DNA of 64,000 nucleotides, taken from NCBI RefSeq assembly GCF_024584515.1, contig NZ_CP102173.1, forward strand, positions 744,001 through 808,000, given 5' to 3'. Below, in pieces: positions 12,862-53,541 of the stretch. Numbering within the stretch: position 1 is the stretch's first letter; each line of letters begins with the position of its first letter. A model generated the notes under the pieces. That model saw only the letters and a program-made list of their open reading frames with translations. It searched no databases and was not told where the DNA came from. A program made the position numbers and the translations under genes. This stretch comes from Aeromicrobium wangtongii. Its GTDB lineage: Bacteria > Actinomycetota > Actinomycetes > Propionibacteriales > Nocardioidaceae.

Positions 12862-12891
12862 TTGACCATCTAGTCTATTATTGCTACCTTA
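12862..12891 (+). promoter_or_regulatory. Promoter with island operator (site 1)
   Basis: TTGACC (12862-12867), 17 bp, TACCTT (12885-12890) forms a sigma70-type promoter about 60 bp before the monooxygenase start. The operator TATTAT-TGCT-ACCTTA occupies 12876-12891, overlapping spacer and -10. The first ~24 bases closely match the promoter at 19992. Confidence 0.65.
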
Positions 12892-12953
12892 GCTAAGAAG
12901 CTCGTTGCGATGTCGCTGAGCTAACTTATGCCAACGCTGCGAAGGGACTAACC

Positions 12954-14168
12954 GTGACTGCAAGCACCTCTGTGACGACGCCGAACGAGGGAGAACCGCG
13001 ACGTGCCAGTAGTAAGCCGTTGCAGCAGAGAGTTGCTGAAGCCTGTGAGGTCGTGCGCAGCGAATCGGCAGCGAGTCGCGCCGGAGGTCGACTGACCGAC
13101 AAGGCAGTCGAGGCAGTGATCGGGGCTGGGCTCCCGTGGCTTCTCGTGGCGACCGACCTAGGGGGCGACGGGTGTGGCCTGGAGGAGTACTTCGGCGCCA
13201 TTGAGGACCTGACGTGCGCGGACGGGTCGGCTGGCTGGACAGTGATGGCTGCGTCGGGAGGTAACGGCATCGCCTCGTCTTCCATTCCACCTGCGGCCGC
13301 CGAACGCATACTCGGCCCAGAGTCGCGCGGCATCATTGTGGGTGCTGCGGCACCCACAGGGAAGGCCGTACCGACCGAGGGTGGTTACCTGATGTCCGGG
13401 CGCTGGCAGTTCGGGAGCGGCGCTAGCTTCGCCACACACTTCGTAGCGGGATGTCTTCAGATGGACTCCGACGAGCAGCTAGTAATGAAGGACGGCAACC
13501 CCGTTCTCCTAATGCCGATCATCCCGCGCGAGGAAGTTGTCACTCACGTCAATTGGGACGTGGTGGGCTTGCAAGCCACCGCTAGTTGGGACTACGAGTT
13601 TACCGACGTCTTCGTGCCTCATGACCAGATCGTCGACCTGACGGACCCCAAGACGTACCGGGCCGAGCCTACTCAGAGAATCGGGTTCTTGGTTCGGGTC
13701 TGGGCGGGTCACACCGCTGTTGCTCTCGGATTTGCGAAGCGGGCGCTGGGTGAGGTCGCAACCATCACCCTTTCCAAAACCCGGGTCGGCTATGGAAAAT
13801 CGGTCGCGGACTCAGACATCTTCAAGCACGAGTTCGCGCAGCGTGTCATGAGTTACGAGGCCGCGCGGGCGGTAATCGTGAAGGCTCTCGTGGCAGCGGA
13901 GGAAGAAGCAGGATTGCACGGCTCGGTGTCGGCGGCCTCTCACGACCGCTTGAGAGTCAGCAACGCGTGGGTTGCGCAGGTCTCCGACGAGATCGTGCAA
14001 TGGGCCTACTCGTGGTCTGGCTCGGTGGCAGTACGGCGTCCAAGTGAGATTGCCAATGTCCGCGACGATTCGGCGGTAGCGGCCACCCACCTTTACGTCG
14101 ACCGGATCAATCTGGTGGAGGGTGCCTCGACACTTCTCACCGATTGGGCAACCAAGTCTTCCAGCTAG
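12954..14168 (+). CDS. Flavin-dependent monooxygenase, acyl-CoA dehydrogenase fold (HsaA/DszC-like)
   Basis: 404 residues from GTG 12954, with AGGGA nearby. The whole length matches the acyl-CoA dehydrogenase-fold oxygenase components of two-component flavin monooxygenases: ADGSAGWTVMAASGGN near residue 90-105, GRWQFGSGASFATHFVAGC near 149-167, a D-x-F-V-P segment TDVFVPHDQIVDLT near 217-230 and C-terminal THLYVDRINLVEGA. It has no acyl-CoA dehydrogenase WCQGFSEP motif. Such enzymes hydroxylate with reduced flavin supplied by a separate reductase; the only candidate here is at 35280. It is closely similar in layout to the paralogue at 36004. It is the first gene of the island, separated from the rest by IS debris, and has its own operator. 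The substrate is unknown. Confidence 0.8.
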   Translation: MTASTSVTTPNEGEPRRASSKPLQQRVAEACEVVRSESAASRAGGRLTDKAVEAVIGAGLPWLLVATDLGGDGCGLEEYFGAIEDLTCADGSAGWTVMAASGGNGIASSSIPPAAAERILGPESRGIIVGAAAPTGKAVPTEGGYLMSGRWQFGSGASFATHFVAGCLQMDSDEQLVMKDGNPVLLMPIIPREEVVTHVNWDVVGLQATASWDYEFTDVFVPHDQIVDLTDPKTYRAEPTQRIGFLVRVWAGHTAVALGFAKRALGEVATITLSKTRVGYGKSVADSDIFKHEFAQRVMSYEAARAVIVKALVAAEEEAGLHGSVSAASHDRLRVSNAWVAQVSDEIVQWAYSWSGSVAVRRPSEIANVRDDSAVAATHLYVDRINLVEGASTLLTDWATKSSS

Positions 14169-14433
14169 CCACTACCTGCGAAAGGCGAACTCGTCGTGAC
14201 CCGTCGAGCGAATGGCACGGCCGAACCCAGAATTGGTGGAACTCACAGTTTCGCCATCACTGGTGCGGAGTGCGCTGCTGCGTAGCCGAGCAACCCGGGA
14301 CCCGGGACCCGGAAGAATAACCGATTGATGAGCTCGTCTCCGTTGAGTCGGGTTCAAGATTTCGGTGCCGGACCGCCCAGGCCTTGGTTGACACCTTGAC
14401 CTGTGAGGAATTCCTCGCTGGAAGGATGTTGAC

Positions 14434-15040
14434 CATGCCCGAGCCGTATCCCCCGAGTTGCGCGAGGACGTCGTGGCCGTGGCCCGCAAACTTGGGGTCC
14501 CGTTGAAGTAGACCCCGAAGGACTTCGGGATCTCTGAGGTCTGCTTGTCGAACTGCTCGAACAAGGAAGACGTCGAAGCCAGCACACGCCCCGGTCTTGA
14601 TGACGCTGACCTCAAAGAGAAGCGTGAGGTCAAGAAGCGGGTGTATCTGCTGGAGCAGGAGGATGAGGTTCTACGACGTCCTGCGGCATAGTTGTCGCAG
14701 GCGAATCTGCCGGGAGAATAATCCTCCCGCTCGTCCGTGAGCTGGGCCGCGGCCGGTGCCCCATCAGGGTGCCGGCCGCGGTGGTGTGCAGGGTTCTGGA
14801 AGCTCAGTAGGCGGGCGCACCACCGGTGGGTCGCCGAACCGGTCAGCCAGCACGATTTCGATGATGCGCACGCAATGAACGCGTTGCGTGAAATCCATGA
14901 GGACGATTACGCATTGGGTGCCCGGTTCCTGACCGACGAGCTGGCGACGTGGGGATTTCCGCCTCTGAGAGCCGAGTTTGGGTGCCCTGCTCCATGGCAG
15001 GCGTGTTCACGTCGCACCTGTCGGAAAAGTTCGAAAAATG
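14434..15040 (+). pseudogene. IS3-family transposase, 5' half, heavily decayed
   Basis: After ATG 14434 the translation, pieced together over frame changes, reads as IS3 OrfA (ELREDVVAVARKLGV, KDFGISE, then KKRVYLLEQEDEVLRR) with an in-frame TAG near 14497 and another near 14688. OrfB begins around 14700 (LSQANLPG, then the RVLEAQ and WVAEPV stretches) and continues to VFTSHLSEK near 15020. Several stops make it inactive. The catalytic DDE core is absent; the matching 3' end lies at 16763-16888, beyond the IS21 relic. Confidence 0.72.
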
Positions 15041-15079
15041 AAGGCCTCTGGTCCGCTGTTTTAAAGTTTGCCGGGTCTT

Positions 15080-15794
15080 GGGTTCTGTTGTTGGGCAGGG
15101 TGTCGATTCTGCGTTTGCGTGGCCGGTATCTGGCGCCTTTGAGGGTCAGGATGTCGGCGTGCTGGACGACGCGGTCGTTTATTGCTGCGGCGGCGTGGTC
15201 GCGAAACACGCCGCCTCAACCGTTGAAGGACAGGTGCGATGTCAAGATCAGCGGGGCATGTTCGTAGCGGCAGTTGACCTGCTGGAAGAACAGGTTCGCG
15301 GTGTCTTGCTCGTAGGGCAGGTACCGACTTCTTCGACGACGATCAGCCCGTAGCGCCGCAACCGTGCGAGGCCGTCCGGTAGTCGTCCGGCGCGGTGACC
15401 GAGTGAGTCGGGTGACCCACTCGGTCACAGTCGTGAACAGGACCCGGTGCACGATGTTGCGTGCTCCCGTGAGGAACCCGCCAGTTGCCAGTGATGCGAC
15501 CTGCGGACGACCTGCTGGTTGGGCGTCCCAGTCGAACTCCTCGATTGTTTTGCGGCTACAGAATTCGGCGACACGGACCGGCAACCTTGTGCCCGAGGCA
15601 TTGCGGGCTGCGGCCTCACGATCCAGCACGGCGGCGAGGTATTCCTCGTGGGTCCAACCGGTGTCACGGGCGTGATCGGCCAGCCGGGCGGCGGCTTCGG
15701 TGATCCGGGATGCCTTCAGTGCCCCAGCGAGATGGGTCAACTGCTTGCGCGCCTCGGTTGCGTCGCTGCTGGCCTTCTCTGCGTGGGTCGTCAT
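15080..15794 (-). pseudogene. istB: IS21-family helper ATPase IstB, decayed
   Basis: ATG 15794 starts a frame with the usual IstB N-terminus (ARKQLTHLAGALKASRITEAA) and CSRKTIEEFDWDAQP. After GGFLTGARNIV it jumps directly to HRVLFTTVTEWVTRLT: the roughly 20 residues holding the Walker A loop (GPPGTGKTHLA in relatives) have been deleted. The frame stops at 15216, and the C-terminal piece (INDRVVQHADILTLKGARYR) continues in another frame to about 15080. The protein could not hydrolyse ATP. It forms an istA-istB pair with the relic to the right. Confidence 0.8.
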
Positions 15795-16660
15795 CAGGCC
15801 ACCTCACCGTCGGTCAGGCCAAAGGCGCGGTCGTAGTCAGTCAGGTCCCGCACCATCTCAAGATCCGGATCTGGTGCTGTTCGGGGTCAACCGAGTAGTC
15901 GTTGCTGTCGACGCGGACGTTGTAGTCACGCCCAACCGGACCAGGTTGACCCACCCGTGGGGCCGGTGCCACCGGCGGCAGCATTGAAGCCCGATCAGCA
16001 TTGATCCGGCCCAGCGGGCGGGCTTGAGGGTCTGCACGATCCGGGCGTCCGCCTTGGTCAACCAGTCGGCGAACTGGGCGTTGAAGTCGGCCGGGGATGT
16101 GAACTCACGCCCGGGCATGAAAGACTTCTCGAAGAACCCGTTGCGTCGCTCCACGACACCTTCGCACTCAGGGGCATACGGCTTGAGCGGCCTCATCGTG
16201 GTCGCGAGCGTGCCAGCGAACGCCCCCACGCCCCGTGTGGCGTTTGCCGCGACCGATGCCGGACTCGCTGTCTCAGATCAGCCTGCGTGGGACACGCCCG
16301 ACTTGCTGAAGCAGCTCCCCCATCCCCAGCAGCAGGTCAGCGGTGTGATGGGTTGGGATCATTCGGCCAGTCGTGAACTGCGAGTGCGCCGCAGTGATCA
16401 CCAGGTCCGGCAGCAACGTTTCCGAACCGTTTTCGAGCGGGATCTTCTTCGGCGGGAACCGCAAGTCACATTGGGCTGCGTCTCCCCTGCAGCCAGATCA
16501 TCCGACCCGCCGGATTGAGTGGTTGATGATCAGGACGCTGCCTCCGGACGTTGTCACGGAACCCGGTGATCGATCCGGTCCAGCCGACTCGCTCAGCGAT
16601 CACCGCGGCCGGTATGTCCGGCACCGTCACCAGCTGTTGCCGCACCAACGGCTCGAACGG
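15795..16660 (-). pseudogene. istA: IS21-family transposase IstA, decayed
   Basis: Three frame-shifted pieces read in order from right to left: DIPAAVIAERVGWTGSI near 16600, then FPPKKIPLENGSETLLPDLV near 16440 with RVPRRLI at 16280, then RPLKPYAPECEGVVERRNGF near 16180 and the C-terminal part to 15858. Together these are the DDE transposase of IS21, lacking the first ~100 residues and broken by stops. The loss of the N-terminus next to the IS3 3' end fits a deletion after insertion. Confidence 0.75.
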
Positions 16661-16762
16661 CGCAAACGATGTCGGCGCCGCCGCCCTCTCGTACTTCGGC
16701 GGCCGGTCCGAAGCCAACACCCGCTCGACCCTCGACCCTCCAACGAAGGCTCGTGGCGCGGT

Positions 16763-16945
16763 GTCGAAGACGTCGAATTGAAGACCCTGAACTGGGTCGA
16801 CTGGTTCAACACCCAACGCTTTCACGAAGCACTCGACGACCTGACACCGATGGCCGCCGAGGAACTTCACTATGCTACAAGAAACTAGCTCCAGCCGACC
16901 GGCTGAGCCACCAAATTCAGCCTCCGGAAACTCCGGGGCAGTTCA
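16763..16945 (+). pseudogene. IS3-family OrfB 3' end and terminal inverted repeat
   Basis: The frame ending at 16888 reads NWVDWFNTQRFHEALDDLTP, the conserved C-terminus of IS3 OrfB transposases. At 16921-16945 lies a typical IS3 end which in reverse reads TGAACTGCCCCGGAG. Orientation and family agree with the 5' half at 14434-15040, so the two halves probably belong to one element split by the IS21 insertion. Confidence 0.65.
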
Positions 16946-17044
16946 GTTGCGAAGAGCCCTTAATTCTGGCTGCCCGATGTGAGGATATTTGTTCGGGATG
17001 AGTCGCCGGCAAATCGTGAATTGTCACATGGAGTGCAGTCGCGA

Positions 17045-17116
17045 GGGTGTCCAGATCGGTGTCCATGTTCGGTCTCGAAGGTTCGAGATTGGGTTGGGAC
17101 GCCGATCTGGACACCC
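17045..17116. repeat. Long near-perfect hairpin with an inner hairpin
   Basis: Arms at 17045-17064 and 17097-17116 are 20 bp with one mismatch. The 32-bp loop contains a second perfect dyad, TCTCGAA-GG-TTCGAGA (about 17072-17087). There is no T-run after it. It lies between the IS3 end and the converging SDR gene. It could be a bidirectional terminator, a cruciform recombination site or an IS/MITE relic. Confidence 0.6.
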
Positions 17117-17244
17117 GAGCACTCAATCGGTGCAGCCACGCCGGTCATACCCCTCGGACTCACTCATCTGGTCTGATTCTCTTTGTTGCCCGAGTTTGCG
17201 CGTAGGTGTGCTGACCCCCAATGTTCTCCAGTCGTCAGCCGGTC

Positions 17245-18078
17245 TCAGGAGGACGTTTCACTCCGCTTCTGGGCCGCTACGCGACGTAGATATGACATGT
17301 AGCCGACAGAGACACGACTTCCTCCGTTGACGGGGATCACTGCGCCGGACAGCCAGGCTGTTTCGTCTGACGCCAAGAAGGCCACGACCGGTCCGATGTC
17401 GTCAACGACGCCCAGTCGACCGAGGGGCACAGAGTCAATCTGCCGTTGGCGTCGCTCAGGTGTGTTCATGACCCCGACGTCAGTCTCGTCAAGTTCAGTC
17501 AGGACCAGTCCTGGTGCGACACAGTTCACGCGGATGCCGAGGTGACCCCATTCGACTGCCATCGTTGCGCTGAGGTTTTCGACTGCTGACTTAGCCGCGC
17601 CGTAGTGACCCGTATTCGGATTTGGCTGGGACGCGCTCCGTGAAGTGATGTTGACCAGGCTCCCGCCTGATGTCATGACTCTGGCGGCTGTCTGACAAGC
17701 GAAGAACGTGGCCTTCAGGTTGAGGTCGACAACTCGGTCCCACCTGCCCTCGTCGATGTCAAGGAGGGGACCGACGTCGTCGGGACTTGCGCTGCCGGCA
17801 TTATTGACCCAGCAGTCGATCGCCCCGAATCGTTGAAGCGTGAAGTTGGCAAGGTCCTGCGATGCACTCGGTTCGGTAATGTCCTGGACCAAAAACTCTG
17901 CTTCGGCGCCCGCTGCGCGGAGCTCATCTACGGTGTTGCGCAGAGCGTCAGCCGAGCGCCCTGAGACCACAACTGCGCTCCCATTCTGCGCGAGGGATTT
18001 GGCGATTCCCCGTCCGATGCCGCGACCACCTCCGGTAACCACCGAGGTCTTGCCTGCGAGGTTGAACATGTTCCTCAT
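17245..18078 (-). CDS. Short-chain dehydrogenase/reductase (SDR)
   Basis: 277 residues from ATG 18078; ATG 18069 is an alternative. Classical SDR: TGGGRGIG near residues 16-23, VNNAG near 91-95, the catalytic serine in NITSRSAS and YGAAK near 163-167. It has a ~25-residue extension at the C-terminus beyond the usual end. It should interconvert an alcohol and a ketone (or a 3-hydroxyacyl-CoA and 3-ketoacyl-CoA) with NAD(P). It diverges from etfB and shares the operator at 18095, so the two units are probably regulated together. It is the only island gene apart from the NTF2-like one on the reverse strand. Confidence 0.85.
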   Translation of the reverse strand: MRNMFNLAGKTSVVTGGGRGIGRGIAKSLAQNGSAVVVSGRSADALRNTVDELRAAGAEAEFLVQDITEPSASQDLANFTLQRFGAIDCWVNNAGSASPDDVGPLLDIDEGRWDRVVDLNLKATFFACQTAARVMTSGGSLVNITSRSASQPNPNTGHYGAAKSAVENLSATMAVEWGHLGIRVNCVAPGLVLTELDETDVGVMNTPERRQRQIDSVPLGRLGVVDDIGPVVAFLASDETAWLSGAVIPVNGGSRVSVGYMSYLRRVAAQKRSETSS

Positions 18079-18094
18079 TTCGTTCGAGAGATGC

Positions 18095-18110
18095 TAATAT
18101 AGCTATGTTA
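18095..18110. promoter_or_regulatory. Island operator shared by SDR and etfBA (site 2)
   Basis: TAATAT-AGCT-ATGTTA; with flanking C and G the 18-bp dyad has only one mismatched pair. It lies 17 bp before the reverse SDR start and 96 bp before etfB. Confidence 0.65.
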
Positions 18111-18205
18111 GCCTACTTACATCTAGTGTCCCAAGCCTCTGACTGACTCGACACCACATCAGTTGCGGTATCCGGGTCACACGCTGCCCGAAGGAGAGTG
18201 TTGGC

Positions 18206-18982
18206 ATGAAAATTGTTGTCGCTGTGAAGTATGTCCCCGACGCGACGGCTGACCGGACCTTCAGCGCCGATAACACCGTCGATCGTGTTGGTGTCGACGG
18301 TTTGCTGTCAGAGCTCGATGAGTATGCGGTGGAGCAGGCGCTCCAGATCGTCGAGGCCGGCGACGGTGACGTCACCGTGCTGACCGTCGGTCCTGAGCAG
18401 GCTGCTGATGCGGTGCGCAAGGCCCTGCAGATGGGTGCGGACGCCGGCGTCCACGTGCAGGACGACGCGATCCACGGATCCGATGCGTTCGCGACCTCGC
18501 TGGTCCTGGCCAAGGCGATCGAGAAGCTCGACTACGACCTCGTCGTGTTCGGCATGGCGTCGACCGATGCGGGTATGGGTGTCGTTCCGACGCTGGTGGC
18601 CGAGCGTCTGGGTCTGCCGGCTGTCACGTACGCCAACGAGATCACGGTTGACAGCGACACGGTCAAGATCGTCCGCGACGGTGATGTCGCCACGCAGGAG
18701 ATCGAGGCCACCGGCAAGCTCGTGCTGTCGGTCACCGACCAGACCGGCGAGGCTCGTTACCCGTCGTTCAAGGGCATCATGGCTGCCAAGAAGAAGGACG
18801 TCCAGGAGTGGACGCTGGAGGACCTGGGCATCGACGCCGGTTCCGTCGGCCTGGACAACGCCTGGACGAAGGTCGAGTCCTTCGAGCCCCGCCCGCCGCG
18901 CACCGCCGGCGAGATCGTGACCGACGAGGGAGACGGCGGCGCCAAGCTCGTCGAGTTCCTCGCCTCCAAGAAGTTCGTCTGA
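18206..18982 (+). CDS. etfB: Electron transfer flavoprotein, beta subunit
   Basis: 258 residues, normal EtfB length. ATG 18206 is preceded by GGAGAG. N-terminal MKIVVAVKYVPD and the AMP/FAD-side segment (VFGMASTDAGMGVVPTLVAERLGLP near 111-135) are typical. With EtfA it collects electrons from acyl-CoA dehydrogenases and passes them to ETF-quinone oxidoreductase. Its position in a cluster with six acyl-CoA dehydrogenase subunits suggests a dedicated ETF. By eye its codon use is more G/C-biased at third positions than that of its neighbours, like chromosomal actinobacterial genes, so the pair may have been recruited separately. Confidence 0.95.
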   Translation: MKIVVAVKYVPDATADRTFSADNTVDRVGVDGLLSELDEYAVEQALQIVEAGDGDVTVLTVGPEQAADAVRKALQMGADAGVHVQDDAIHGSDAFATSLVLAKAIEKLDYDLVVFGMASTDAGMGVVPTLVAERLGLPAVTYANEITVDSDTVKIVRDGDVATQEIEATGKLVLSVTDQTGEARYPSFKGIMAAKKKDVQEWTLEDLGIDAGSVGLDNAWTKVESFEPRPPRTAGEIVTDEGDGGAKLVEFLASKKFV

Positions 18983-19010
18983 GAAGACTCGACGGAAAAA
19001 GGGATTTGAC

Positions 19011-19958
19011 ATGACTGAAGTACTCGTACTGATCGACGCCGTCGACGGCAAGGTCACCAAGCCGTCGCTCGAGCTGCTCACGATCGCCCGCCGCATCGGC
19101 GAGCCGTCCGCGATCGTCTTCGGAGCAGCTGACAACGGCGTCCTTGCCGAGTACGGCGCCGAGAAGATCTACACCTTCGACGACGCCGCGTTCGGTGAGT
19201 ACCTCGTGGGCCCCAAGGCCGAGGCCCTCGCGCAGCTGGTCTCCGAGAAGTCCCCGGCCGCGGTGCTGGTCGGCGCTTCGACCGAGGGCAAGGAGATCGC
19301 TGCTCGGGTCGCGCTCAAGACCGAGTCGGGTCTGATCACCGACGCGGTCGACGTGCAGGTCGATGCTGGCACCGTCACCACGACCCAGTCGGTCTTCGCC
19401 GGCAACTTCACGGTCCAGGCGCAGGTCAGCCAGGGCACGCCGGTCATCGCGGTCAAGCCAAACTCTGCTGCCCCCGAGGCCGTTGCCGGTGCCGGTGCGG
19501 TCGAGGCCGTGACGGTCAGCATCTCCGATGCTGCCAAGGGCGCGAAGATCACCTCGTCGAAGGAGAAGGCCGCTTCGGGTCGTCCCGAGCTGACCGAGGC
19601 CGCGATCGTGGTCTCGGGTGGCCGTGGCACCGCCGGTGACTTCACCGATGTCGAGGCGTTCGCCGATTCTCTCGGTGCGGCTGTGGGCGCAAGCCGTGCG
19701 GCGGTCGACTCCGGCTGGTACCCGCACTCGTTCCAGGTTGGTCAGACCGGCAAGACGGTCTCGCCGCAGCTGTACGTCGCCAACGGCATCTCGGGTGCGA
19801 TCCAGCACCGCGCCGGCATGCAGACGTCCAAGACGATCGTCGCGGTCAACAAGGACGACGAGGCGCCGATCTTCGAGCTCGTCGACTTCGGTGTCGTCGG
19901 AGACCTCAAGGCCGTCCTGCCCCAGGCCACCGCCGAGGTCGCCAAGCGCAAAGGCTGA
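19011..19958 (+). CDS. etfA: Electron transfer flavoprotein, alpha subunit
   Basis: 315 residues, complete. It starts at ATG 19011, 28 bp after etfB. The N-terminal domain ([18 protein letters not shown]) is followed by the C-terminal FAD-binding domain with VVSGGRG near residue 201-207, [11 protein letters not shown] near 226-236, and the signature [20 protein letters not shown] near 249-268. It forms the ETF heterodimer with EtfB. No terminator is obvious after it; the next promoter begins 34 bp later. Confidence 0.95.
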
Positions 19959-19991
19959 ATCGATGGTGAAAGCCGCAGGACGAGGCGCACG

Positions 19992-20021
19992 TTGACTATC
20001 CAGTCTATTATTGCTATAATA
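19992..20021 (+). promoter_or_regulatory. Strong promoter with island operator (site 3)
   Basis: TTGACT (19992-19997), 17 bp, TATAAT (20015-20020) is a near-consensus sigma70 promoter. The perfect dyad TATTAT-TGCT-ATAATA covers 20006-20021, so the bound regulator would cover the -10 and exclude RNA polymerase. It should drive the long operon from 20171, with a ~145-base leader. Confidence 0.75.
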
Positions 20022-45844: not shown

Positions 45845-46713
45845 GCGCCTCTGGCAGCTTCATCGATCAACTCGCGGGGCTCGACGGCAAGACAGCCGTA
45901 GTGATCGGCGGCGCGGGCGGCCTGGGTGGCTATGCGACGTGGGCGCTGGCGCGTGCTGGCGCGCGTGTCGTATCTCTTGACAAGGTTGATGCCGACCTCC
46001 ATCAGTTCGATGCCGCAAGTCTTGCAAACATTGAGTTCATTCAAGGCGATGCGCGAGACGCGGACGATCTGCAGCGGACATTTGTCGCGGCCGGCCCGCG
46101 AGTAGATGTTTTGGTGTGCGTAATCGGTGGAAGTTTCTTCGCAGAGTTTGAATCGTTGAGTGAGAACGCCGTCCAGAGCCTGGTGACACTGAACTTCTTG
46201 GCCCCAGTCGACGCGATCAGAGCCGCACTCCCCTTGATGAAGACCCATGGGGGATCGGTCATCACGATCACCTCCACCGAGGCTCATCGGGGATGTCCTC
46301 GGATGTCGATCTACGCGGCCATGAAGGCTGCCATGACCAGCATGACCGCAACGCTTGCAGTCGAGCTGGGCCATGCGGGGGTGCGGTTTAACACAATCGC
46401 TCCCGACGTGGTCCAAACGCCGAATCTGGAGCGACTGCTTCAAGAAGAATCGTATCCGGATGAGGCGGTGCAGCGTCGATATCGCGCGAGCGTCCCGCTT
46501 GGCCGCCCAGGCGTTCGGGAAGATTTTGTGGGCGCCGTGTTGTTCCTGGCGTCGGACTTGTCGAAGTACGTGACGGGGCAAGCGTTGAAGGTCGACGGTG
46601 GAACGTCGGCGGCACCGGGGTTCATGAATTGGGACGAACACGGATGGTTCTGCTTCCTGCCCATGGAGGTCAGTGCCGCGATAGGCGAGCGTGTGCCAGA
46701 TCAGACGTCCTGA
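45841..46713 (+). CDS. Short-chain dehydrogenase/reductase, long C-terminal tail
   Basis: 290 residues from ATG 45841. The Rossmann motif is GGAGGLGG near residues 23-30; NNAG is replaced by CVIGGSF near 97-103; the serine is in ITSTEAHR and the active-site pair YAAMK is near 159-163. After the usual end (KVDGGTSAAPG) comes a 30-residue tail with NWDEHGWFCFLP. It should act on an alcohol/ketone; the tail could form a substrate lid. It is translated by coupling to the small frame before it. Confidence 0.8.
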   Translation: MSASGSFIDQLAGLDGKTAVVIGGAGGLGGYATWALARAGARVVSLDKVDADLHQFDAASLANIEFIQGDARDADDLQRTFVAAGPRVDVLVCVIGGSFFAEFESLSENAVQSLVTLNFLAPVDAIRAALPLMKTHGGSVITITSTEAHRGCPRMSIYAAMKAAMTSMTATLAVELGHAGVRFNTIAPDVVQTPNLERLLQEESYPDEAVQRRYRASVPLGRPGVREDFVGAVLFLASDLSKYVTGQALKVDGGTSAAPGFMNWDEHGWFCFLPMEVSAAIGERVPDQTS

Positions 46714-46739
46714 CGCCTTGCCGGTGCGGCCGGCGGGGT

Positions 46740-46755
46740 AATTATCACAATAATA
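46740..46755. promoter_or_regulatory. Island operator before the third SDR/BVMO unit (site 9)
   Basis: AATTAT-CACA-ATAATA: good half-sites but an atypical centre, so weaker than the others. It lies 107 bp before ATG 46863. Confidence 0.5.
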
Positions 46756-46765
46756 ACGATGTACT

Positions 46766-46789
46766 CGTGGGATGGGTGTCTATCCCACG
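46766..46789 (+). other. Perfect hairpin in the leader of the SDR/BVMO unit
   Basis: CGTGGGAT-N8-ATCCCACG, an 8-bp perfect stem 10 bp after operator site 9 and ~74 bp before the SDR start. It may stabilise the mRNA 5' end or bind a regulator; no T-run follows. Confidence 0.45.
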
Positions 46790-46862
46790 CTGAAAGTGAA
46801 TGGAGCGGGGACATGGTTGGAGACATCAGGGTGACAGTTGGTCACAAACGAGATGGGACACG

Positions 46863-47663
46863 ATGATGGCGCAGACTGACGTGCTTGGCCTCGATGGTGC
46901 GGCGGCGATCGTGCTTGGAGTCGGACCCGGCATGGGGCTGGAGACCGTGCGGGTTTTGGCCTCTGCCGGCGCCCGTGTCACATGCGTCGACCTTCAAGAA
47001 GATATCGCCGAATCCGCCAAGGAGCTTGCCGCCGAGCTAGGTAGTGAAGGTATGGCTTTGACCGGGGATGCCACCGATCGGTCATTCGTAGATTCGGTCG
47101 TCGAGCAATCTGTGTCGCGATGGGGACGACTCGACAGTTCAGTCTCCATCATAGGCAGGAACCAACTGGCAACGCTCGAAGAATCGACGGACGAGAACTG
47201 GACGTCCAACTGGGACATCAACCTTCGACCTCCGCTTTTGTTGACCCAAGCGTCCGCCAAAGCCATGAAAAAGCAAGGTTCGGGCAGCATCGTTGTCATC
47301 ACGTCTATTAACGGAACCCTGTCGTCGCCTCGCGCCGCGGCGTACGGCGCCGCCAAGGCCGGACTGGTGTCGATGATGAGGACGGCGGCTGTCGAGTTTG
47401 GACGGTCCGGAGTCCGCGTGAATGCTATTTCACCCGGGGTCGTCTTGACTCCACGTATCTCTTTCTTGGCCGGCTCCGAAGAAGGGGCGCAGTTCGAAGC
47501 AAGAATTCCTATGGGAAGACTCGGTTCGCCTCACGAGATCGCGAACACCGCCTTGTTTCTCGCTAGTCCGATGTCGTCCTATGTGACGGGCCAAGTCATC
47601 GGCGTCGATGGGGGCGCGTCGGTTGCTTACCAGCTTCCGACGCCGGAGTGGAAGCAGCACTGA
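46863..47663 (+). CDS. Short-chain dehydrogenase/reductase with altered cofactor loop
   Basis: 266 residues from ATG 46863 (ATG 46866 is equally possible); an upstream ATG at 46800 would add an unlikely 21-residue extension through the leader. The usual TGxxxGIG is replaced by LGVGPGMG near residues 18-25, NNAG by IIGRN near 94-98; ITSINGT (serine) and YGAAK near 161-165 are kept. It should still bind NAD(P). It is probably co-transcribed with the BVMO gene 150 bp downstream, since no island operator lies between them. It could supply the ketone substrate of that enzyme. Confidence 0.82.
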   Translation: MMAQTDVLGLDGAAAIVLGVGPGMGLETVRVLASAGARVTCVDLQEDIAESAKELAAELGSEGMALTGDATDRSFVDSVVEQSVSRWGRLDSSVSIIGRNQLATLEESTDENWTSNWDINLRPPLLLTQASAKAMKKQGSGSIVVITSINGTLSSPRAAAYGAAKAGLVSMMRTAAVEFGRSGVRVNAISPGVVLTPRISFLAGSEEGAQFEARIPMGRLGSPHEIANTALFLASPMSSYVTGQVIGVDGGASVAYQLPTPEWKQH

Positions 47664-47813
47664 AGTCACCGAGGGCTCCGGCCGCGAGCGACTGGAGGGC
47701 TCCCCACCTCTTCGCACAGTCGGCGCGATGGCGCCGAACCGCACAGGCACGCCGGCGCGGCCGGTGAGGGGGCCGAGGTCCTTATCCACGCACTACTGGA
47801 AGAAGAGGCAAGT

Positions 47814-49310
47814 ATGTCCATGACCGATACCGGGCGTCGACGTGACAAGGCGAGTTCGGGCGCACCGTGGCCACGGATTTGCATCGTAGGCGGTGGGCTG
47901 GGAGGCATCGGAACCGCTGTAAAGCTCAGACAGGCCGGCTACGAGCAGTTCACCATCTTTGAGTCCTCGTCGGGGCCTGGTGGAACCTGGCACACGAATC
48001 GTTATCCCGGATGCGAAGTTGACACCAGCTCCAAGGGCTATTCGTTCTCGTTCATGGACTACCCCTGGTCGAGCACGCACGCCAGACAGCCCGAGCTGCT
48101 TGGTTACGCGGAAGCCATGATTGAACGCTTTAACCTCCGCGACCGGTTTCGGTTTAACACTCGCGTCGTGGAGGCGCGTTGGGACGATGGTCGCGGCGCC
48201 TACTCAGTAATTCTCGAATCAGGAGAGACGCTCGAGTTCGATGTCCTGGTCAGTGCGGTCGGGATGTTCGCGTTGCCGAACATTCCGCAGTGGCCTGGAA
48301 TGGAGAGCTTCGGTGGCGAAATGTTCCATAGCTCTCAGTGGCCGGAATCGATCGATCTCAGCGGCAAGCGTGTGGCTGTGGTGGGTACCGGGAGTACAGC
48401 CTCGCAAATCGTCCCTGAGGTGGCGCAGGTTGCCGAGACGGTCAAGGTATTCCAGCGGCAGCCAGGGTGGATCCTGCCCAAACCCGTCCGAACCTTCGAC
48501 GACGCGGAGAAGCGTCGAATCGGACGACGGCGCTTGCGGCGCAAAGCCCGACGGGCTCTCATGTTTTGGGAGTACGGCGTTGCCGCCAAGGGGTTCACAG
48601 TGGGTTCACGCCAGCATCGGAAAATGACGGGGATAGCTCTGGAATATCTCGACTCCGCTGTTACCGACCCGGTGATCCGTCAGGCGTTGACACCGTCGTA
48701 CCCGTTTGGCTGCAAGCGGCCCATCAAGACCTCCGGGTTTCTTGAGTCATTTAACAGGAGCGACGTTGAGTTGGTGGCGCAGTCAGTCACTGCGGTCTCC
48801 CCGTCCGGGCTGATCGACTCAGCGGGAAAGGAGCACCCGCTTGACGCAGTCATCATCGCTACCGGATTTCATGCTTCGAAGTACCTCGCCACCTTGCCGG
48901 TGTACGGGTTGGATGGCGTCGAACTGCAAGAGGCGTGGGATGGAGACCCTCAGGCGTTTCTGGGCATCACCGTTCCGCGTTTCCCCAATCTCTTCATCTT
49001 GTACGGCCCTAACACCAACGGTGGCGGTCCCATCACGTCTCAGATCGAACGTCAGATCGAGTTCACCGTTCGAGCTATTCGGCGCGCTGAGAAGCTGGGA
49101 CGGCACACGATTCTGACAGATCCCTCCGCCTTGACGTCCTTCGTTGCGGAGGTGGATCAGCTCAACGCACAGGTGCAGTCGGCAGCGGATGCGGGATGCA
49201 ACAACTACTACGTGTCCGAATCTGGCCGCAATGTCACCCAGTGGCCGACGAGTCACTTGCGATACATCCTGGCCCTCAGACGTGGGTTCGGGCGGCTCCG
49301 TTTTCAATGA
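47814..49310 (+). CDS. Flavin-containing Baeyer-Villiger-type monooxygenase
   Basis: 498 residues from ATG 47814 with AGAGG six bases upstream. FAD motif GGGLGGIG near residues 26-33, GTWHTNRYPGCEVD near 57-70, the Baeyer-Villiger fingerprint FGGEMFHSSQWP near 166-177, NADPH motif GTGSTASQIV near 191-200, and the late ATGF segment near 351-354 are all present. It should insert oxygen next to a ketone using NADPH and O2, giving an ester or lactone. It is a prime candidate for the ring-opening step of the island, with the esterase or cyclase-family hydrolase acting on the product. Length is normal for group-B BVMOs. Confidence 0.86.
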   Translation: MSMTDTGRRRDKASSGAPWPRICIVGGGLGGIGTAVKLRQAGYEQFTIFESSSGPGGTWHTNRYPGCEVDTSSKGYSFSFMDYPWSSTHARQPELLGYAEAMIERFNLRDRFRFNTRVVEARWDDGRGAYSVILESGETLEFDVLVSAVGMFALPNIPQWPGMESFGGEMFHSSQWPESIDLSGKRVAVVGTGSTASQIVPEVAQVAETVKVFQRQPGWILPKPVRTFDDAEKRRIGRRRLRRKARRALMFWEYGVAAKGFTVGSRQHRKMTGIALEYLDSAVTDPVIRQALTPSYPFGCKRPIKTSGFLESFNRSDVELVAQSVTAVSPSGLIDSAGKEHPLDAVIIATGFHASKYLATLPVYGLDGVELQEAWDGDPQAFLGITVPRFPNLFILYGPNTNGGGPITSQIERQIEFTVRAIRRAEKLGRHTILTDPSALTSFVAEVDQLNAQVQSAADAGCNNYYVSESGRNVTQWPTSHLRYILALRRGFGRLRFQ

Positions 49311-49400
49311 TGCAGGCGCCCCCCGCGATGTCCTGGGTGCTCGTCGCGCGAACGACCTCGGTCGGTGCGCCTCGGACGCGGAATTACCCACAGCCGAGGC

Positions 49401-49419
49401 AATTAATACTATTATAGTA
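49401..49419. promoter_or_regulatory. Island operator before the second acyl-CoA synthetase (site 10)
   Basis: AATTAA-TACT-ATTATA (49401-49416), overlapping the near-perfect palindrome TACTATTATAGTA (49407-49419). A possible -35 TTACCC (49384) and -10 TACTAT (49407) are 17 bp apart. It ends 40 bp before the start codon. Confidence 0.6.
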
Positions 49420-49459
49420 GATTTACCCGAGGCGAAGTTGCCTCGAAGATTTAGGAGAA

Positions 49460-51013
49460 ATGCGCACCATGCTCCCCAGCGTCTTGCATTATTTGGAAAG
49501 TCACGCACACGCCGATCCAGGAAGGCCCTTGATCCTCGATGCTGGGGGAGACCTGTCGTACTCGGAGGTTCGGTCTCGGGCGCGAGCGCTTGCTGACTCT
49601 CTCCGAAGGGAAGGGGTAGGGGCTGGCGACAGAGTCGTGCTCTGGCTGCCCAACAGTCCTGAGTGGGTCATTGTTGGCCTGGCTGTTCAGTACGCTGGCG
49701 CCATCGTCGTTCCTATCAACACCCGGTGGACCGTGTCGGAAGCCGCCTATATCCTTGAAAAGACCCGAGCGAGAGCAGTCGTGGCATCGGAAAAATTTCT
49801 CGGCAGAGATTATTTGACCGAGATCGAGTCATTCGCAGGAGAATTCCCGTCCCTCGAGCTGTTCATCTCCGTTGATGGCGATAGCACGCGACAAGCCACG
49901 GTCGCTTCGCTGATTGATCAAGGTTGTGCGTCCGACCCTGCAATCGATGCGCAACTCAATCGTGTGGCCCCCGGTGATACGAGCGACATCATGTTCACGT
50001 CCGGCACCACGGGGCTTCCCAAAGGCGCCAAGATCACGCACGGGTCGACGCTCGCAGCGATCTTGGGGGCCAACGAGCGTCTGCTCCTCAGGCCAGACGA
50101 CCGGCAACTCATTGTTAATCCATTTTTCCATATGTTTGGCTACAAGCACGGGTGGAGTTATTGTGTCGTGATCGGCGCGTCATTCTACCCCGAACCCGTC
50201 TTCGATCCCGCCCGGGCCGCCGATATAATCGAGAAGTTTCGAGTGACGGTCTTTTCGGGTCCGCCGACGCTCTTCGAATCATTGATGGCGCTCCCAGACT
50301 TTGAGTCGCGCGACTTCAGCACCCTTCGCTTCAGTCTGACTGGGGCGACAAATGTTCCGCCGGACACGGTGCGAAAACTGCAATCTGCCCTGGGTATCGA
50401 TCATGTAGCAAATGGCTACGGCCTTACGGAATCGACAGCGTGTGGCACCCACACCTCGATCGATGACGATATCGAGGTGGTCGCGACCACCACCGGTCGG
50501 CCGCTTGACGTCCTCGAATTCCGAATCGTAGGGCCCGACGGCGCAATGTGCGACGTTGACGAACCTGGCGAGATCGAAATCCGAGGACCCGTACTGATGA
50601 GCGGGTACTTCGAGGATGACGCAGCCACCGCCGCGACGATCGATGCCGACGGATGGCTGCACACTGGCGACATCGGCGCTGCCGACGCTGCGGGCAACAT
50701 CCGAATCGTCGGTCGCCTCAAGGAAGTCATCATCGTTGGCGGGTTCAACGTGTACCCGGCAGAGGTGGAGCGAGTGTTAAATTCTCATCCCTCCATCGCG
50801 AGTTCTGCTGTTGTGGGCGTGCCCGACGATCGCCTAGGGGAGGTCCCCGTGGCCTACCTCGAGGTGACTGAGCCGCTAGAAGGTATGGAGAAATGGTGCC
50901 GCGAGAGGTTGGCCAATTACAAGCAGCCCCGGGAGTTCATCTTGGTGGACCAGATGCCTCGCAACGCGATGGGGAAGATCGTCAAGTCCGACCTGCAGAA
51001 GTGCGGCGCGTAA
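49460..51013 (+). CDS. Acyl-CoA synthetase (AMP-forming, FadD3-like)
   Basis: 517 residues from ATG 49460 (AGGAG two bases away) or ATG 49469 (11 bases away); the second is a credible alternative. ANL motifs: FTSGTTGLPKGAKITH near residues 179-194, YGLTESTACGTH near 320-331, DGWLHTGD near 396-403, GRLKEVIIVGGFNVYPAEVE near 417-436 and the catalytic lysine in RNAMGKIVK near 503-511. In layout it resembles the FadD3-type synthetases that activate ring-derived propionates in steroid degradation. It should activate a different acid from the 24283 enzyme. It has its own operator and promoter. Confidence 0.87.
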   Translation: MRTMLPSVLHYLESHAHADPGRPLILDAGGDLSYSEVRSRARALADSLRREGVGAGDRVVLWLPNSPEWVIVGLAVQYAGAIVVPINTRWTVSEAAYILEKTRARAVVASEKFLGRDYLTEIESFAGEFPSLELFISVDGDSTRQATVASLIDQGCASDPAIDAQLNRVAPGDTSDIMFTSGTTGLPKGAKITHGSTLAAILGANERLLLRPDDRQLIVNPFFHMFGYKHGWSYCVVIGASFYPEPVFDPARAADIIEKFRVTVFSGPPTLFESLMALPDFESRDFSTLRFSLTGATNVPPDTVRKLQSALGIDHVANGYGLTESTACGTHTSIDDDIEVVATTTGRPLDVLEFRIVGPDGAMCDVDEPGEIEIRGPVLMSGYFEDDAATAATIDADGWLHTGDIGAADAAGNIRIVGRLKEVIIVGGFNVYPAEVERVLNSHPSIASSAVVGVPDDRLGEVPVAYLEVTEPLEGMEKWCRERLANYKQPREFILVDQMPRNAMGKIVKSDLQKCGA

Positions 51014-51068
51014 CTGAGTCGCGGGGTGTTTCCCGTCGCATGGGCGCGCCATCAACGTCCGCTGCTAT

Positions 51069-51093
51069 TAGGATAGTTGCTATGGCAATCCTA
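51069..51093. promoter_or_regulatory. Island operator before the GntR gene, autoregulatory (site 11)
   Basis: GATAGT-TGCT-ATGGCA (51072-51087) inside a larger dyad TAGGAT...ATCCTA (51069-51093). It diverges from consensus and lies 20 bp before the gene, consistent with weaker autoregulation. Confidence 0.55.
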
Positions 51094-51113
51094 GTGTCGG
51101 TGAGGTTTCTGTG

Positions 51114-51863
51114 ATGGCAAACGAACGAGTCAAGCATGTGCGGGTCGCAGACACGTTGGCTGACGACCTGCGAACGCGCATATTCAGCGGCGCGTTGAAG
51201 GACGGAAGACTCCCTCCGCAGCACCAGCTCGCAGAGGAGGCGGGTGTCGGTCTCGTGTCTGTTCGAGAAGCTCTGAGAATTCTCGAGTCGGAAGGCCTGA
51301 TCTTCATTAAAAGGGGCAACCAGGGCGGTGCTGAAATTCGGCGTCCGGACCCTCGCACAGCGTCGTTCTCGCTGGGGTTGGTGCTCCAAAGCACTGGGAC
51401 AACACTCGCGGAACTGAGTGCAGCGTTGCGAGCGTTCGAGCCGTACTGTGCTCGCATGTGCGCGGGGTCGGACGACTGCGCGCAGATCGCAGACGAGCTG
51501 GAACACATCAATGATGAGTTGTCTGGTCTCATCGACGACGCCAATGGATTTACGCCGGCGGCACGACGATTCCATGCCAGGCTAGTTGAATTGTGTCCTA
51601 ACCGGGCGGTTGCGCTGGTGGTCCAATCCCTCGTCGACTTATGGAGCATCCAAGAGGACCAGTGGGCGCGCCGAATGAACGATGCTCGTGCGTACCCGGG
51701 CCCAAAGTACCGAATCGACGTGGTGAGCGTGCACGGCCGGCTAATCCAAGCCATCAGAGATGGAGACGAGGACGAAGCTGAGCGTACCGCGAGTTCCCAC
51801 CTCCACGCAACGCAGTTGTACGTCATGCAGGGTCGAGAGCCAGAGGGCGTGCGGGTCACCTGA
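51114..51863 (+). CDS. GntR-family (FadR/FCD subgroup) transcriptional regulator
   Basis: 249 residues from ATG 51114 (GTG 51111 adjacent). The N-terminal winged helix covers about residues 5-75: LADDLRTRIFSGALKDGRLP and LAEEAGVGLVSVREALRILE, then GLIFIKRGNQGGAEI as the wing. The C-terminal helical FCD domain (about 90-240) holds RFHARLVEL and VVSVHGRLIQAIRDGDEDEA with the histidines and acidic residues expected for metal/ligand binding. It is the only regulator gene of the island, and an operator of the same family precedes it, so it is the best candidate for the protein binding all the TATNAT-WGCT-ATNATA sites. The ligand may be a CoA thioester or acid intermediate; this is inference. Confidence 0.85.
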   Translation: MANERVKHVRVADTLADDLRTRIFSGALKDGRLPPQHQLAEEAGVGLVSVREALRILESEGLIFIKRGNQGGAEIRRPDPRTASFSLGLVLQSTGTTLAELSAALRAFEPYCARMCAGSDDCAQIADELEHINDELSGLIDDANGFTPAARRFHARLVELCPNRAVALVVQSLVDLWSIQEDQWARRMNDARAYPGPKYRIDVVSVHGRLIQAIRDGDEDEAERTASSHLHATQLYVMQGREPEGVRVT

Positions 51864-51952
51864 ATCCGCGTGCATTGGCGCGACGAGCTCGACAGAGTCT
51901 CGGCGCTGAACTTTGCAGCTCTGGTAATTGGGCCATGGTGACTAGCTAGCGC

Positions 51953-51968
51953 TATCATAGCTGCAATA
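51953..51968. promoter_or_regulatory. Island operator before the MFS unit (site 12)
   Basis: TATCAT-AGCT-GCAATA: left half and centre perfect. It lies 16 bp before ATG 51985. Confidence 0.6.
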
Positions 51969-51984
51969 GCGATGGAGGCGTCAG

Positions 51985-52191
51985 ATGCGCGAGGTCGAAT
52001 GTGTGCGAGCCGGAGCGGCCAAGGCTAGCGGTGTCTTTGGACGTGTGATCGCTCCCGGTGAAACTGCGGCTGAACCACGGCGTCCGTCCTTATCAGGCCC
52101 CACCGAAACAAAGCTGTCTTGGCGTCCCAGAGATCCCCATAGGCTCCCGCTGGGAGTCGGCATGCCTCTTCTTGGGTGGAACGAGGGGTGA
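51985..52191 (+). CDS. Small ORF (68 residues) coupled to the MFS gene
   Basis: ATG 51985 has GGAGG six bases upstream, directly after operator site 12. The frame runs to a stop at 52189-52191 that overlaps the likely MFS start GTG 52188. The product (start MREVECVRAGAAKASGVFGR) is rich in Arg, Pro and Gly, has no membrane segment or signal peptide, and resembles nothing I know. It might be a genuine small protein, or a leader frame that delivers ribosomes to the MFS gene. Codon use was not tested. Confidence 0.45.
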   Translation: MREVECVRAGAAKASGVFGRVIAPGETAAEPRRPSLSGPTETKLSWRPRDPHRLPLGVGMPLLGWNEG

Positions 52192-53402
52192 GTGCTGCCG
52201 AAACGCCGCCGGTGCTCGCTAGCGCTCGACGCCCCTGGGTGGTGATCTTTGACAGAAAGTTCGGCGCGCTGTTCTGGGGAAAGCTTCTGAGTACCACCGG
52301 AGTGTGGATGCACAGTGTGGTTGCAGCGATTGTCGTCTTCGACACCACCGGCTCGACCCTGTTGGTTGGACTGATTACGGTCGCGCAGTTCAGTCCCCAA
52401 CTCCTGTTGACGATGCTGAGCGGAAAGTGGGCAGATCGGGGGAATCTGCGCGCCCAGATTGTGGCTGGCCGGGTCCTGTCGGCGTGCGGATCGGTTGGGC
52501 TGGCGATCTGGATCTGGTGGGCTAGTCCCAGCGGAGACGCGTTGGCGGCGAGTGTCATCGTCTCTTCTGTCGTCGTTGGGGTGGGGTTCGTGATCGGTGG
52601 GCCGGCTATGCAGTCGATCGTGCCATCCTTGGTGAGGCCCTCTGAACTCGCTTTGGGGGTGACGCTGAATTCTGTGCCACTGACCGCTGGGCGGATAGCC
52701 GGGCCAATTATCGGCGCGACTATGTACCGTGACGGATCCCCTGCGCTCGTCTTTCTTGTTGCTGGCCTGTGTCACCTCCTGTTCGCTGTCGCGGCGGCAA
52801 CGCTTCCGCCGACTGACCGGCGATTGAATGGATCCGACGATGATGACTCGATCAAGGCCGCGCTGGCCTATGTTTGGCGAGATCGCAAACTCTGCATCCA
52901 GTTGGTCGCGGTGGCGGCGATTGGGTTTGGTGCAGAGCCTTCCTTGACGTTGGCGCCCGGGCTTGCGCGAGATGTGGGACTGGGGGCCGAGTTTGTGGGC
53001 CACCTTTCTGCCGCCTTCGGTGTCGGCGCAGCACTCGCGCTCATAGTCGTGTCGTGTTGGTCGACACTTCGACCCTCGGTAGCAGGTTTGGTCGGCCTAT
53101 CAGTGACGAGTATCAGTCTCTTAGGTGCTGCGTTGACGAGGGACCCGGTCGCGCTGCTTTTGTGTTTCGTCCTGGGCGGTGCAGGCTTCTCGAGTTCTTT
53201 GGCCGGCTTCACCACGTTGATACATGGACGTGTGCATGACAGGTACCGGGGCCGTGTCATGGCGCTCTGGTTGCTCGGATTCATTGGTTCTAGGCCGATA
53301 GCAGCGGGAATAGTCGGCGGACTGGGCGAAATTGCCGGAGTGGCACTCGCGTTCGCCATCGTGTCTGTCGTAGTGGGCGGCGTGGCTCTCGCGGCGCGAT
53401 GA
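52188..53402 (+). CDS. Major facilitator superfamily transporter
   Basis: 404 residues from GTG 52188; GTG 52176 is an in-frame alternative, but the GTGA overlap with the small frame before it favours 52188. About 10-12 membrane segments are visible, with an early GKLLSTTGVWMHSVVAAIVV and the loop GKWADRGNLRAQIVAGRVLS (the family GxxADRxxRR-like loop between TM2 and TM3). A hydrophilic central loop with SDDDDSIKAA follows TM6. It belongs to the MFS_3-like (enterobactin exporter-type) group. It could import or export a pathway compound; direction cannot be decided from sequence. Confidence 0.83.
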   Translation: MSAAETPPVLASARRPWVVIFDRKFGALFWGKLLSTTGVWMHSVVAAIVVFDTTGSTLLVGLITVAQFSPQLLLTMLSGKWADRGNLRAQIVAGRVLSACGSVGLAIWIWWASPSGDALAASVIVSSVVVGVGFVIGGPAMQSIVPSLVRPSELALGVTLNSVPLTAGRIAGPIIGATMYRDGSPALVFLVAGLCHLLFAVAAATLPPTDRRLNGSDDDDSIKAALAYVWRDRKLCIQLVAVAAIGFGAEPSLTLAPGLARDVGLGAEFVGHLSAAFGVGAALALIVVSCWSTLRPSVAGLVGLSVTSISLLGAALTRDPVALLLCFVLGGAGFSSSLAGFTTLIHGRVHDRYRGRVMALWLLGFIGSRPIAAGIVGGLGEIAGVALAFAIVSVVVGGVALAAR

Positions 53403-53449
53403 CTAGCCGCGCCCCATCGTCCGTGGCGCCGTCGCTTCGGCAGTATGGC

Positions 53450-53465
53450 TATGATAGCTATCATT
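53450..53465. promoter_or_regulatory. Island operator before the epimerase unit (site 13)
   Basis: TATGAT-AGCT-ATCATT; the central 14 bases ATGATAGCTATCAT are a perfect palindrome. TATGAT at 53465-53470 may be the -10. It lies 77 bp before the start codon. Confidence 0.7.
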
Positions 53466-53541
53466 ATGATACTATGGGGCGAGCGAGGTCCCGTACGGGT
53501 TCTAGGTTCGATTCCGCCGTTTCATACTTGGGAGTCTTTTG

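Follow-up and report, generated by a model that had tools for sequence, protein, structure and literature searches.

The catabolic island and its sites

The window analysed here is the whole stretch of 64,000 nucleotides at positions 744,001-808,000 of contig NZ_CP102173.1 (GCF_024584515.1, Aeromicrobium wangtongii), part of a complete 3.69-Mb single-contig genome. It carries a catabolic island of ~34 genes, described here from domain and family scans of open reading frames (ORFs); an HsaA-like monooxygenase gene (12954) is its first gene and an epimerase-like gene (53539) its last, and short A/T-rich dyads are dotted along it. A sequence-only reading of the window had listed thirteen such dyads as an island-wide regulon and had named a GntR/FadR-type protein encoded in the island as its regulator. 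Judged from sequence comparison, these sites form a real set of putative operators confined to the island, and most probably the island's own GntR reads them. The island and the twelve strong candidate operators, none of them assigned to a strand, are:

12954..54432: island under putative control
12876..12891: two boxes, TATTATT-GC-TACCTTA, before the HsaA-like monooxygenase gene 12954; TTGACC lies 17 bp upstream of TACCTT
18095..18110: TAATATA-GC-TATGTTA, between a short-chain dehydrogenase/reductase (SDR) gene (17245-18078, minus strand) and the divergent etfBA (18206, plus strand)
20006..20021: TATTATT-GC-TATAATA, the top-scoring site, before the acyl-CoA dehydrogenase gene run 20171-35109; overlapped by TTGACT-17-TATAAT
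20126..20141: second operator of that run, TAAGAAT-GC-TATAATA, 30 bp before the acyl-CoA dehydrogenase gene (acd) 20171
35151..35175: three boxes, TATGATC-AG-TATCATA-GC-GATGATA, before the HsaB-like flavin reductase gene 35280
35930..35945: TATTATA-GC-TATAATT, before the HsaA-like gene 35989; the -35-like TCGACA lies 16 bp upstream of TATAAT
38483..38498: GATGATT-GC-TATCATA, before the cyclase/SDR/ABC-transporter gene run 38702-44337
45718..45733: TATCATA-AC-TATTCTA, between a SnoaL-like gene (45249-45644, minus strand) and the SDR gene 45841 (plus strand)
46740..46755: AATTATC-AC-AATAATA, before the SDR gene 46800; a Baeyer-Villiger monooxygenase (BVMO) gene, 47814, comes next without a site of its own
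49401..49416: AATTAAT-AC-TATTATA, before the FadD3-like ligase gene 49460
51953..51968: TATCATA-GC-TGCAATA, before the MFS gene 52176
53450..53474: TATGATA-GC-TATCATT, with a third box GATACTA (4/6), before the epimerase-like gene 53539

All thirteen dyads of the earlier list are present in the DNA where it had put them. Their placement before gene groups or between divergent units also holds: 13/13 lie outside called genes (35160 being taken in place of 35151 for this count) in an island whose intergenic share, by ORF calls that do not include the SnoaL-like gene, is 10.3% (3877 of 37533 bases, insertion sequences (IS) excluded), and 18095 and 45718 stand between divergent genes. The ORF-called start codons follow the sites at 24-208 bp. 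Thus equipped are the groups beginning at 12954, 17245/18206 (divergent), 20171-35109 (with two sites), 35280, 35989, 38702-44337, 45249(-)/45841 (divergent), 46800 and 49460, as well as gntR, the MFS gene and 53539. Site-free gaps of 97-150 bp precede genes 33423, 37295, 40540, 43250 and 47814, which presumably belong to the preceding gene groups.

Confinement of the motif to the island

A symmetric matrix was built from all thirteen listed sites and scored within the window. Twelve of them reach 18.7-28.7 bits, against 8.0 for the best non-overlapping unlisted position (at 7001). The thirteenth, at 51072, scores 8.3 bits, which is background, and is the only listed site missed by the pattern TATNATWGCTATNATA at up to three mismatches; the list therefore stands for twelve of its entries. 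The site at 35151 is real (18.7 bits), yet an overlapping register at 35160 scores higher (22.2 bits), so that three boxes at 35151, 35160 and 35169 take the place of the plain dyad described before.

With up to three mismatches allowed, TATNATWGCTATNATA yields 26 strand matches in the window where 0.36 are expected, a number that 0/100 dinucleotide shuffles reach, and the view that such repetition exceeds chance is well founded. Across the whole genome the same search returns 28 strand matches. They mark 15 places, and 14 fall in the island (window 12876-53465); the sole outside place, at 298013, carries three mismatches. At up to two mismatches, ten of ten genome places are inside. The reversed control of TATNATWGCTATNATA gives 2 forward and 4 reverse matches genome-wide. 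A looser pattern, TATNATNGCNATNATA (up to two mismatches), puts 13 of its 15 genome places in the island, and the window flanks hold no match to either pattern at these thresholds, just as none had been noticed in the flanking operons. Scanned in this way, the genome shows the motif nearly confined to the island, and this confinement supports an island-wide regulon. In nine same-genus genomes TATNATNGCNATNATA occurs at 2-11 places each, mostly as G/C-richer variants.

Two other approaches were of little use. A sequence-only covariance model of the sites gave 5 strand matches at 3 places of the genome, all in the island (best E 1.7), and zero matches in 11 other genomes or records, the model being too short for useful E-values and low in sensitivity. 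Counting near-perfect 16-bp dyads (at least 7/8 pairs, at least 8 A/T) in intergenic DNA returned 5 for the window versus 0-4 for 20 other loci, and was set aside as too blunt, the boxes of relatives being spelled differently.

Box anatomy and promoter overlap

The best description of the motif is not a plain 16-bp dyad but a row of 7-bp boxes (TATNATA) recurring every 9 bp, usually two of them. Since each TATNATA box is symmetric in its own right, two of them at a 9-bp distance, with GC as the usual spacer, make up the 16-bp dyad. Read in 9-bp register, the mean number of box matches (of 6) is 4.7 for box 0 and 5.2 for box 1, then 2.5 at +2, 1.8 at -1 and 0.7-1.5 in the others, with a background of 1.25. 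A third box is clear only at 35151-35175 (5, 6 and 5 of 6); partial third boxes match at 4/6 at 20006, 53450 and, on the upstream side, 38483, and at 3/6 at 35930.

The second box agrees with TATAAT in at least 4/6 positions at 11/13 sites and perfectly at three (20006, 20126, 35930). A -35-like hexamer of at least 5/6 stands at 12876 (TTGACC) and 20006 (TTGACT), both 17 bp upstream, and at 35930 (TCGACA), 16 bp upstream, that is, at 3/13 sites compared with 1% of random positions; the remaining ten have 1-4 of 6. The overlap with a -35/-10 pair that had been noted at 20006 and 12876 is hence confirmed, and the repression predicted from it goes as far as being consistent with boxes over -10-like hexamers. 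By eye, larger palindromes may also be present: CGACATC..GATGTCG at 35918-35965 around 35930, and GACTAT..ATAGTC around 20006, where the left arm overlaps the -35.

Could such sites be promoters and nothing else? If they were AT-rich promoter cores, in effect a doubled -10, of an imported lower-GC island that had no dedicated regulator, one would understand both why the second box is often a good -10 (TATAAT at 20006, 20126 and 35930) and why G+C is 0.59-0.65 from 12 to 56 kb versus 0.64-0.73 in the window remainder. A promoter, however, needs one -10 and no second box exactly 9 bp off with dyad symmetry, a single one of the 15 genome places (at up to three mismatches) lies outside the island, and the window matrix also finds sites at gntR loci in another genus, as described below. 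We consider this explanation very improbable, and promoter cores by themselves were rejected on account of the near absence of the pattern from the rest of the genome.

The same features bear on the direction of control. Boxes over the -10 predict repression. Were GntR instead an activator or dual regulator, its overlap with the -10 would be incidental; the poor -35 match (at most 4/6) of 10/13 sites is what activator-dependent promoters often display, whereas occupancy of the -10 normally blocks RNA polymerase, and the characterised regulator whose operator type comes closest, NanR of E. coli, acts as a repressor (PMC8012715). On balance, activation or dual control appears unlikely.

The GntR protein and the element at its gene

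Two features of the window concern the regulator itself:

51111..51863, plus strand: gntR, 250 aa, with GntR (PF00392) and FCD (PF07729) domains and the helix GVGLVSVREAL, by domain scan and alignment; proposed reader of the sites
51069..51093, no strand assigned: candidate autoregulatory three-box array TAGGATA-GT-TGCTATG-GC-AATCCTA before gntR, which replaces the 51072 site

The claim that a GntR/FadR-type protein is the island's only regulator gene agrees with our scan, in which it is the sole regulator among the matches listed for the island ORFs; its start is at 51111. Both domains score well above their cut-offs (PF00392, 47.3 bits, cut-off 27; PF07729, 56.5 bits, cut-off 24.3), and by its domains the protein is a member of the FCD (FadR) subfamily. 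Its proposed operator would be atypical: the usual operator of that subfamily, TKGT/ACMA (GT-N-AC), gives way to boxes of the form TATNATA. Within the genus (36 genomes), the best match to the GntR protein is 38% identical (G021, E 1.5e-44) and the second has an E-value of 4.8e-26, and the window GntR looks private to this species. A search for it in genome contigs found two poor relatives (24 and 38% identity), which were not used.

The array before gntR consists of three 7-bp boxes that repeat every 9 bp, the outer arms being inverted. A genome search for TAGGAT-N13-ATCCTA finds a single place, also when one mismatch is allowed, and the reversed control likewise gives one match per strand; the arms were picked after inspection. 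These arms resemble the boxes of relatives with a SYPS helix (see below), yet the stretch reaches only 6/10 under the NATNCTT/AAGNATN rule that describes those. The idea that gntR has a site of its own thus survives in the form of this array, which is differently spelled and not a copy of the island motif, and through which gntR may regulate itself.

Boxes at loci of related GntR proteins

We compared 58 loci around a GntR relative, with a limit of 20 kb per locus (40 kb on plasmids) and leaving out lower-scoring relatives. The helix SLVSLREAL, nearly that of the window (GLVSVREAL), is found in nine of them, eight in a genus labelled g43 and the ninth (L043) on an M. branderi plasmid. In the eight g43 gntR loci the window-trained matrix finds 18 sites of at least 16 bits in 158,094 bases, or 2-3 per locus; it finds 2 in 400,000 bases of control DNA (20 fixed-place stretches from 4 of the 8 g43 genomes) and 6 in the 942,707 bases of the 49 gntR loci with other helices. 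At a threshold of 13 bits the counts are 26, 4 and 16, respectively. Of 200 column-permuted matrices none reached 18 sites (mean 1.16, largest 13). The g43 sites keep to particular positions: 2.8-4.5 kb upstream of gntR in 8/8 loci, mostly as TATTTTT-AC-TATCTTA; ~2.4 kb downstream in 7/8, for instance TATTTTT-AT-TATGTTA; and, at 12 bits or more, 48-111 bp before gntR in 6/8, within TATTTAT-AC-CATTACT-GC-TAAAATA. In the eight whole g43 genomes, TATNNTNRYTATNTTA has 16 perfect matches, 16/16 in the gntR locus. The neighbours at one g43 locus (L088) encode an aldehyde dehydrogenase, a KshA-type Rieske protein, ligases, a CoA transferase, an SDR, a luciferase-like enzyme and acyl-CoA dehydrogenases.

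A second spelling accompanies the helix SYPS[VI]REA, which is present in 16 loci with 9-bp-phased boxes near gntR such as AATACTT-AT-AAGGATA-GT-AGGATTG (L087) and AATCCTT-AT-AAGGATT-GC-TAGTATT (L101). Pairs obeying a box rule (NATNCTT/AAGNATN, at least 9/10 fixed bases, overlapping registers counted) number 27 in the 16 SYPS loci (334,979 bases) versus 1 in the nine SLV loci (198,820) and 6 in the 400,000 control bases; 15/16 SYPS loci have such a pair, and in 14/16 one lies within ~100 bp of gntR. The Rhodococcus plasmid locus L044 has boxes of this kind in front of gntR, in the gap separating divergent oxidoreductase and acyl-CoA dehydrogenase genes, and ahead of two genes for substrate-binding proteins. 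So box spacing appears to be common to the SLV and SYPS relatives, and spelling to go with the helix.

The same branch keeps company with one enzyme gene. A homologue of acd_20171 with at least 50% identity is linked to gntR in 15/16 SYP, 7/9 SLV, 3/3 SGP/SAP, 1/18 SRP and 0/12 other loci, and occurs in 0/20 control stretches (best 41.5%). In the window the gene is:

20171..21319, plus strand: acyl-CoA dehydrogenase gene, first of a long run; a homologue (at least 50% identity) lies near the gntR relative in 26/58 compared loci

A probable private regulon and what weighs against it

Taken together, we think it likely that the island forms a private regulon, in which the local FCD-type GntR encoded at 51111 binds arrays of phased boxes, represses, and is released by an acid or CoA intermediate of the pathway. 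In almost all island gene groups, GntR would occupy the -10 region by binding 7-bp A/T boxes (TATNATA) spaced 9 bp apart (7-2-7, in some cases with a third box) and would repress transcription; relief would probably come from an acidic or CoA-linked intermediate of the pathway that the island itself encodes. We infer direct binding, cooperative occupancy of adjoining boxes, repression rather than activation, the inducer and the transcription units. That GntR is the regulator, as proposed earlier, is supported on three counts: it is the only island regulator seen, its branch of the GntR family is tied to 9-bp-phased boxes, and a similar box recurs where the helix is near-identical.

Several observations weigh against this assignment. 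The element at the window's own gntR fails the island motif (8.3 bits). No GntR relative above 48% identity over most of the protein was found on plasmids or in overlapping genome sets (58 of relatives, 391 from the order, 394 from the class and 341 from the family), and hence there is no clear orthologue; in the tree, moreover, the window GntR sits on a long branch that groups with the SYPS proteins (support 99/96). The g43 loci are orthologous, which reduces their 18 sites to about three or four independent promoter positions; L085 and L105 are without a site of at least 12 bits just before gntR, and L043 has the SLV helix and zero sites at that threshold. TATNNTNRYTATNTTA was written from the g43 sites themselves, and its specificity is limited to perfect matches, in that up to one mismatch gives 34 matches versus 22 for the reversed control, with 6/18 of the one-mismatch ones within ~25 kb of gntR. 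The SYPS box rule, too, was drawn up once the sites had been seen, and the control stretches used with it are from g43, not SYPS, genomes. Finally, L037, L042 and L045 score 17-22 bits with the window matrix despite differing helices. On a Novosphingobium plasmid (L045), TATTATA-GC-TAACATT-GC-AATGTTA at 14381-14405 lies 5.6 kb from a GntR gene of 40% identity with the helix SPPC. At positions 5580 and 11885 of L037, TATCTTAGCTATCATT (20.7 bits) stands ~4.5 kb from a GntR gene in a genome of the same genus; the helix encoded there, GRVT, keeps the Arg, a misfit to a helix code, as is the SYPS locus L083, which scores 21.0 with the window matrix.

Might a regulator encoded elsewhere be the true reader? 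The sites could be operators of another GntR or of a LuxR/NarL-type or ribbon-helix-helix protein, with the island GntR reading only the 51069 array. That array is indeed spelled unlike the other 12 sites, 7 more GntR relatives (E<=0.001) are encoded in the genome, and heptamers of NarL-type regulators also stand 7-2-7. Set against this are the similar boxes around gntR in another genus, where the GntR helix is near-identical, and the lack of any other regulator among the scanned island ORFs. We regard an outside regulator as improbable and favour control by the island GntR.

A wider proposal is that an FCD GntR lineage gave up the arginines that read GT/AC and now reads 7-bp boxes every 9 bp, that its helix (YP versus LV) tracks box spelling (NATNCTT versus TATNATA-like), and that it travels with an acd gene and can take over an imported island. 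We give this about even chances. A tree joining the window GntR with the SLV group was not rejected (p-AU 0.21), and its LV may be either inherited or convergent. If the helix-to-box code holds, replacing L-V by Y-P within the helix would be predicted to switch preference between TATNATAGCTATNATA and AATACTTATAAGGATA.

At the least, the window offers a candidate regulator-operator pair for a ~34-gene island with twelve strong natural candidate operators, and the relatives suggest a helix-to-box code for a GntR branch outside the GT/AC rule. An imported pathway that arrives together with its regulator and operators could, in such a case, stay controlled in its new host. Literal spellings of the operator were not found in the open literature searched, and among the papers listed for GntR/FCD regulators none describes such a system by its title and abstract opening, subscription papers lying mostly outside that coverage.

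Comparison with known systems

KstR and KstR2 are TetR-type regulators with other operators that control many acyl-CoA and ring-degrading genes. The island resembles their regulons in that some of its ORFs match HsaA, HsaB, FadD3 and IpdE2 models, below cut-off, and differs in having an FCD GntR gene and TATNATA boxes in place of a TetR-type system. No TetR match is among those listed for the scanned island ORFs, a search that did not extend outside the island.

NanR of E. coli offers a closer parallel. As described in PMC8012715, it is an FCD GntR repressor with a (GGTATA)3 operator and a small catabolic regulon; tight binding depends on two or more correctly spaced boxes and involves adjoining dimers, Arg59, Arg69, Arg73 and Asn89 are the likely base contacts, and a 32-residue N-terminal extension gives cooperativity. 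The window GntR shares the subfamily, its best NCBIfam match being NF003011 (74.5 bits, under the cut-off of 260), and the use of two or more short boxes at a close fixed spacing, here with a 9-bp period that recurs in relatives. In contrast, GGTATA is in none of the 13 window sites, which read TATNATA, and in our alignment the four contact residues named in that source correspond to His, Leu, Arg and Arg (3/4 changed), a replacement that fits boxes without GGTATA or GT/AC. Nor is there room for the extension, as the domain of the window GntR begins at residue 14 (alignment from 18 versus 38 in NanR). By analogy, we suggest that the window arrays follow a NanR-like multi-box logic, though the NanR extension is absent.

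For FadR, PMC4494728 reports contacts to G through Arg35 and Arg45, and for FadR/PdhR/LldR-type operators TKGT/ACMA palindromes, with exceptions also named. Common to these and the window are the subfamily and A/T-rich palindromes; many of the groups covered there carry one more half-site, 7-12 nt away from the centre, which may be compared with the third box of the window. The differences are that the window boxes lack GT/AC and that the helix Arg which contacts G in FadR, and is kept in PdhR, NanR and LldR, is Leu in the window GntR.

Gene content and other features of the island

The island's genes comprise 6 acyl-CoA dehydrogenase ORFs, 3 crotonase-type ORFs, an electron transfer flavoprotein, a TesB-like thioesterase and 2 acyl-CoA ligases; two HsaA-like genes and one HsaB-like flavin reductase represent oxygenase parts, and there is one BVMO. 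Several SDRs, an HSL-type esterase, a Zn-ADH, a Pfam 'Cyclase', a ribose-type ABC transporter and an MFS protein are also encoded. NCBIfam matches of island ORFs are mostly under cut-off, those to the steroid-degradation models named above included, and a cyclic or terpenoid/steroid-like acid is our guess at the substrate.

The island seems foreign-looking and imported, a view that IS remnants fit; these lie, decayed, at 14170-17160, in the interval that separates the first island gene from the SDR gene. Further features are:

15216-15794, minus strand: truncated IstB-like piece, IS remnant
16373-16885, plus strand: integrase-core end piece, IS remnant
45249-45644, minus strand: SnoaL-like gene, divergent from SDR gene 45841, with site 45718 in between

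Ribose/arabinose-type ABC transporter genes (40540-44337) share a gene run with the cyclase and SDR genes inside this acyl-CoA catabolic island. Between the transporter and the SnoaL-like gene, ~0.9 kb (44340-45240) is without a recognisable gene and holds an ORF, 44612-45076, without a Pfam match.

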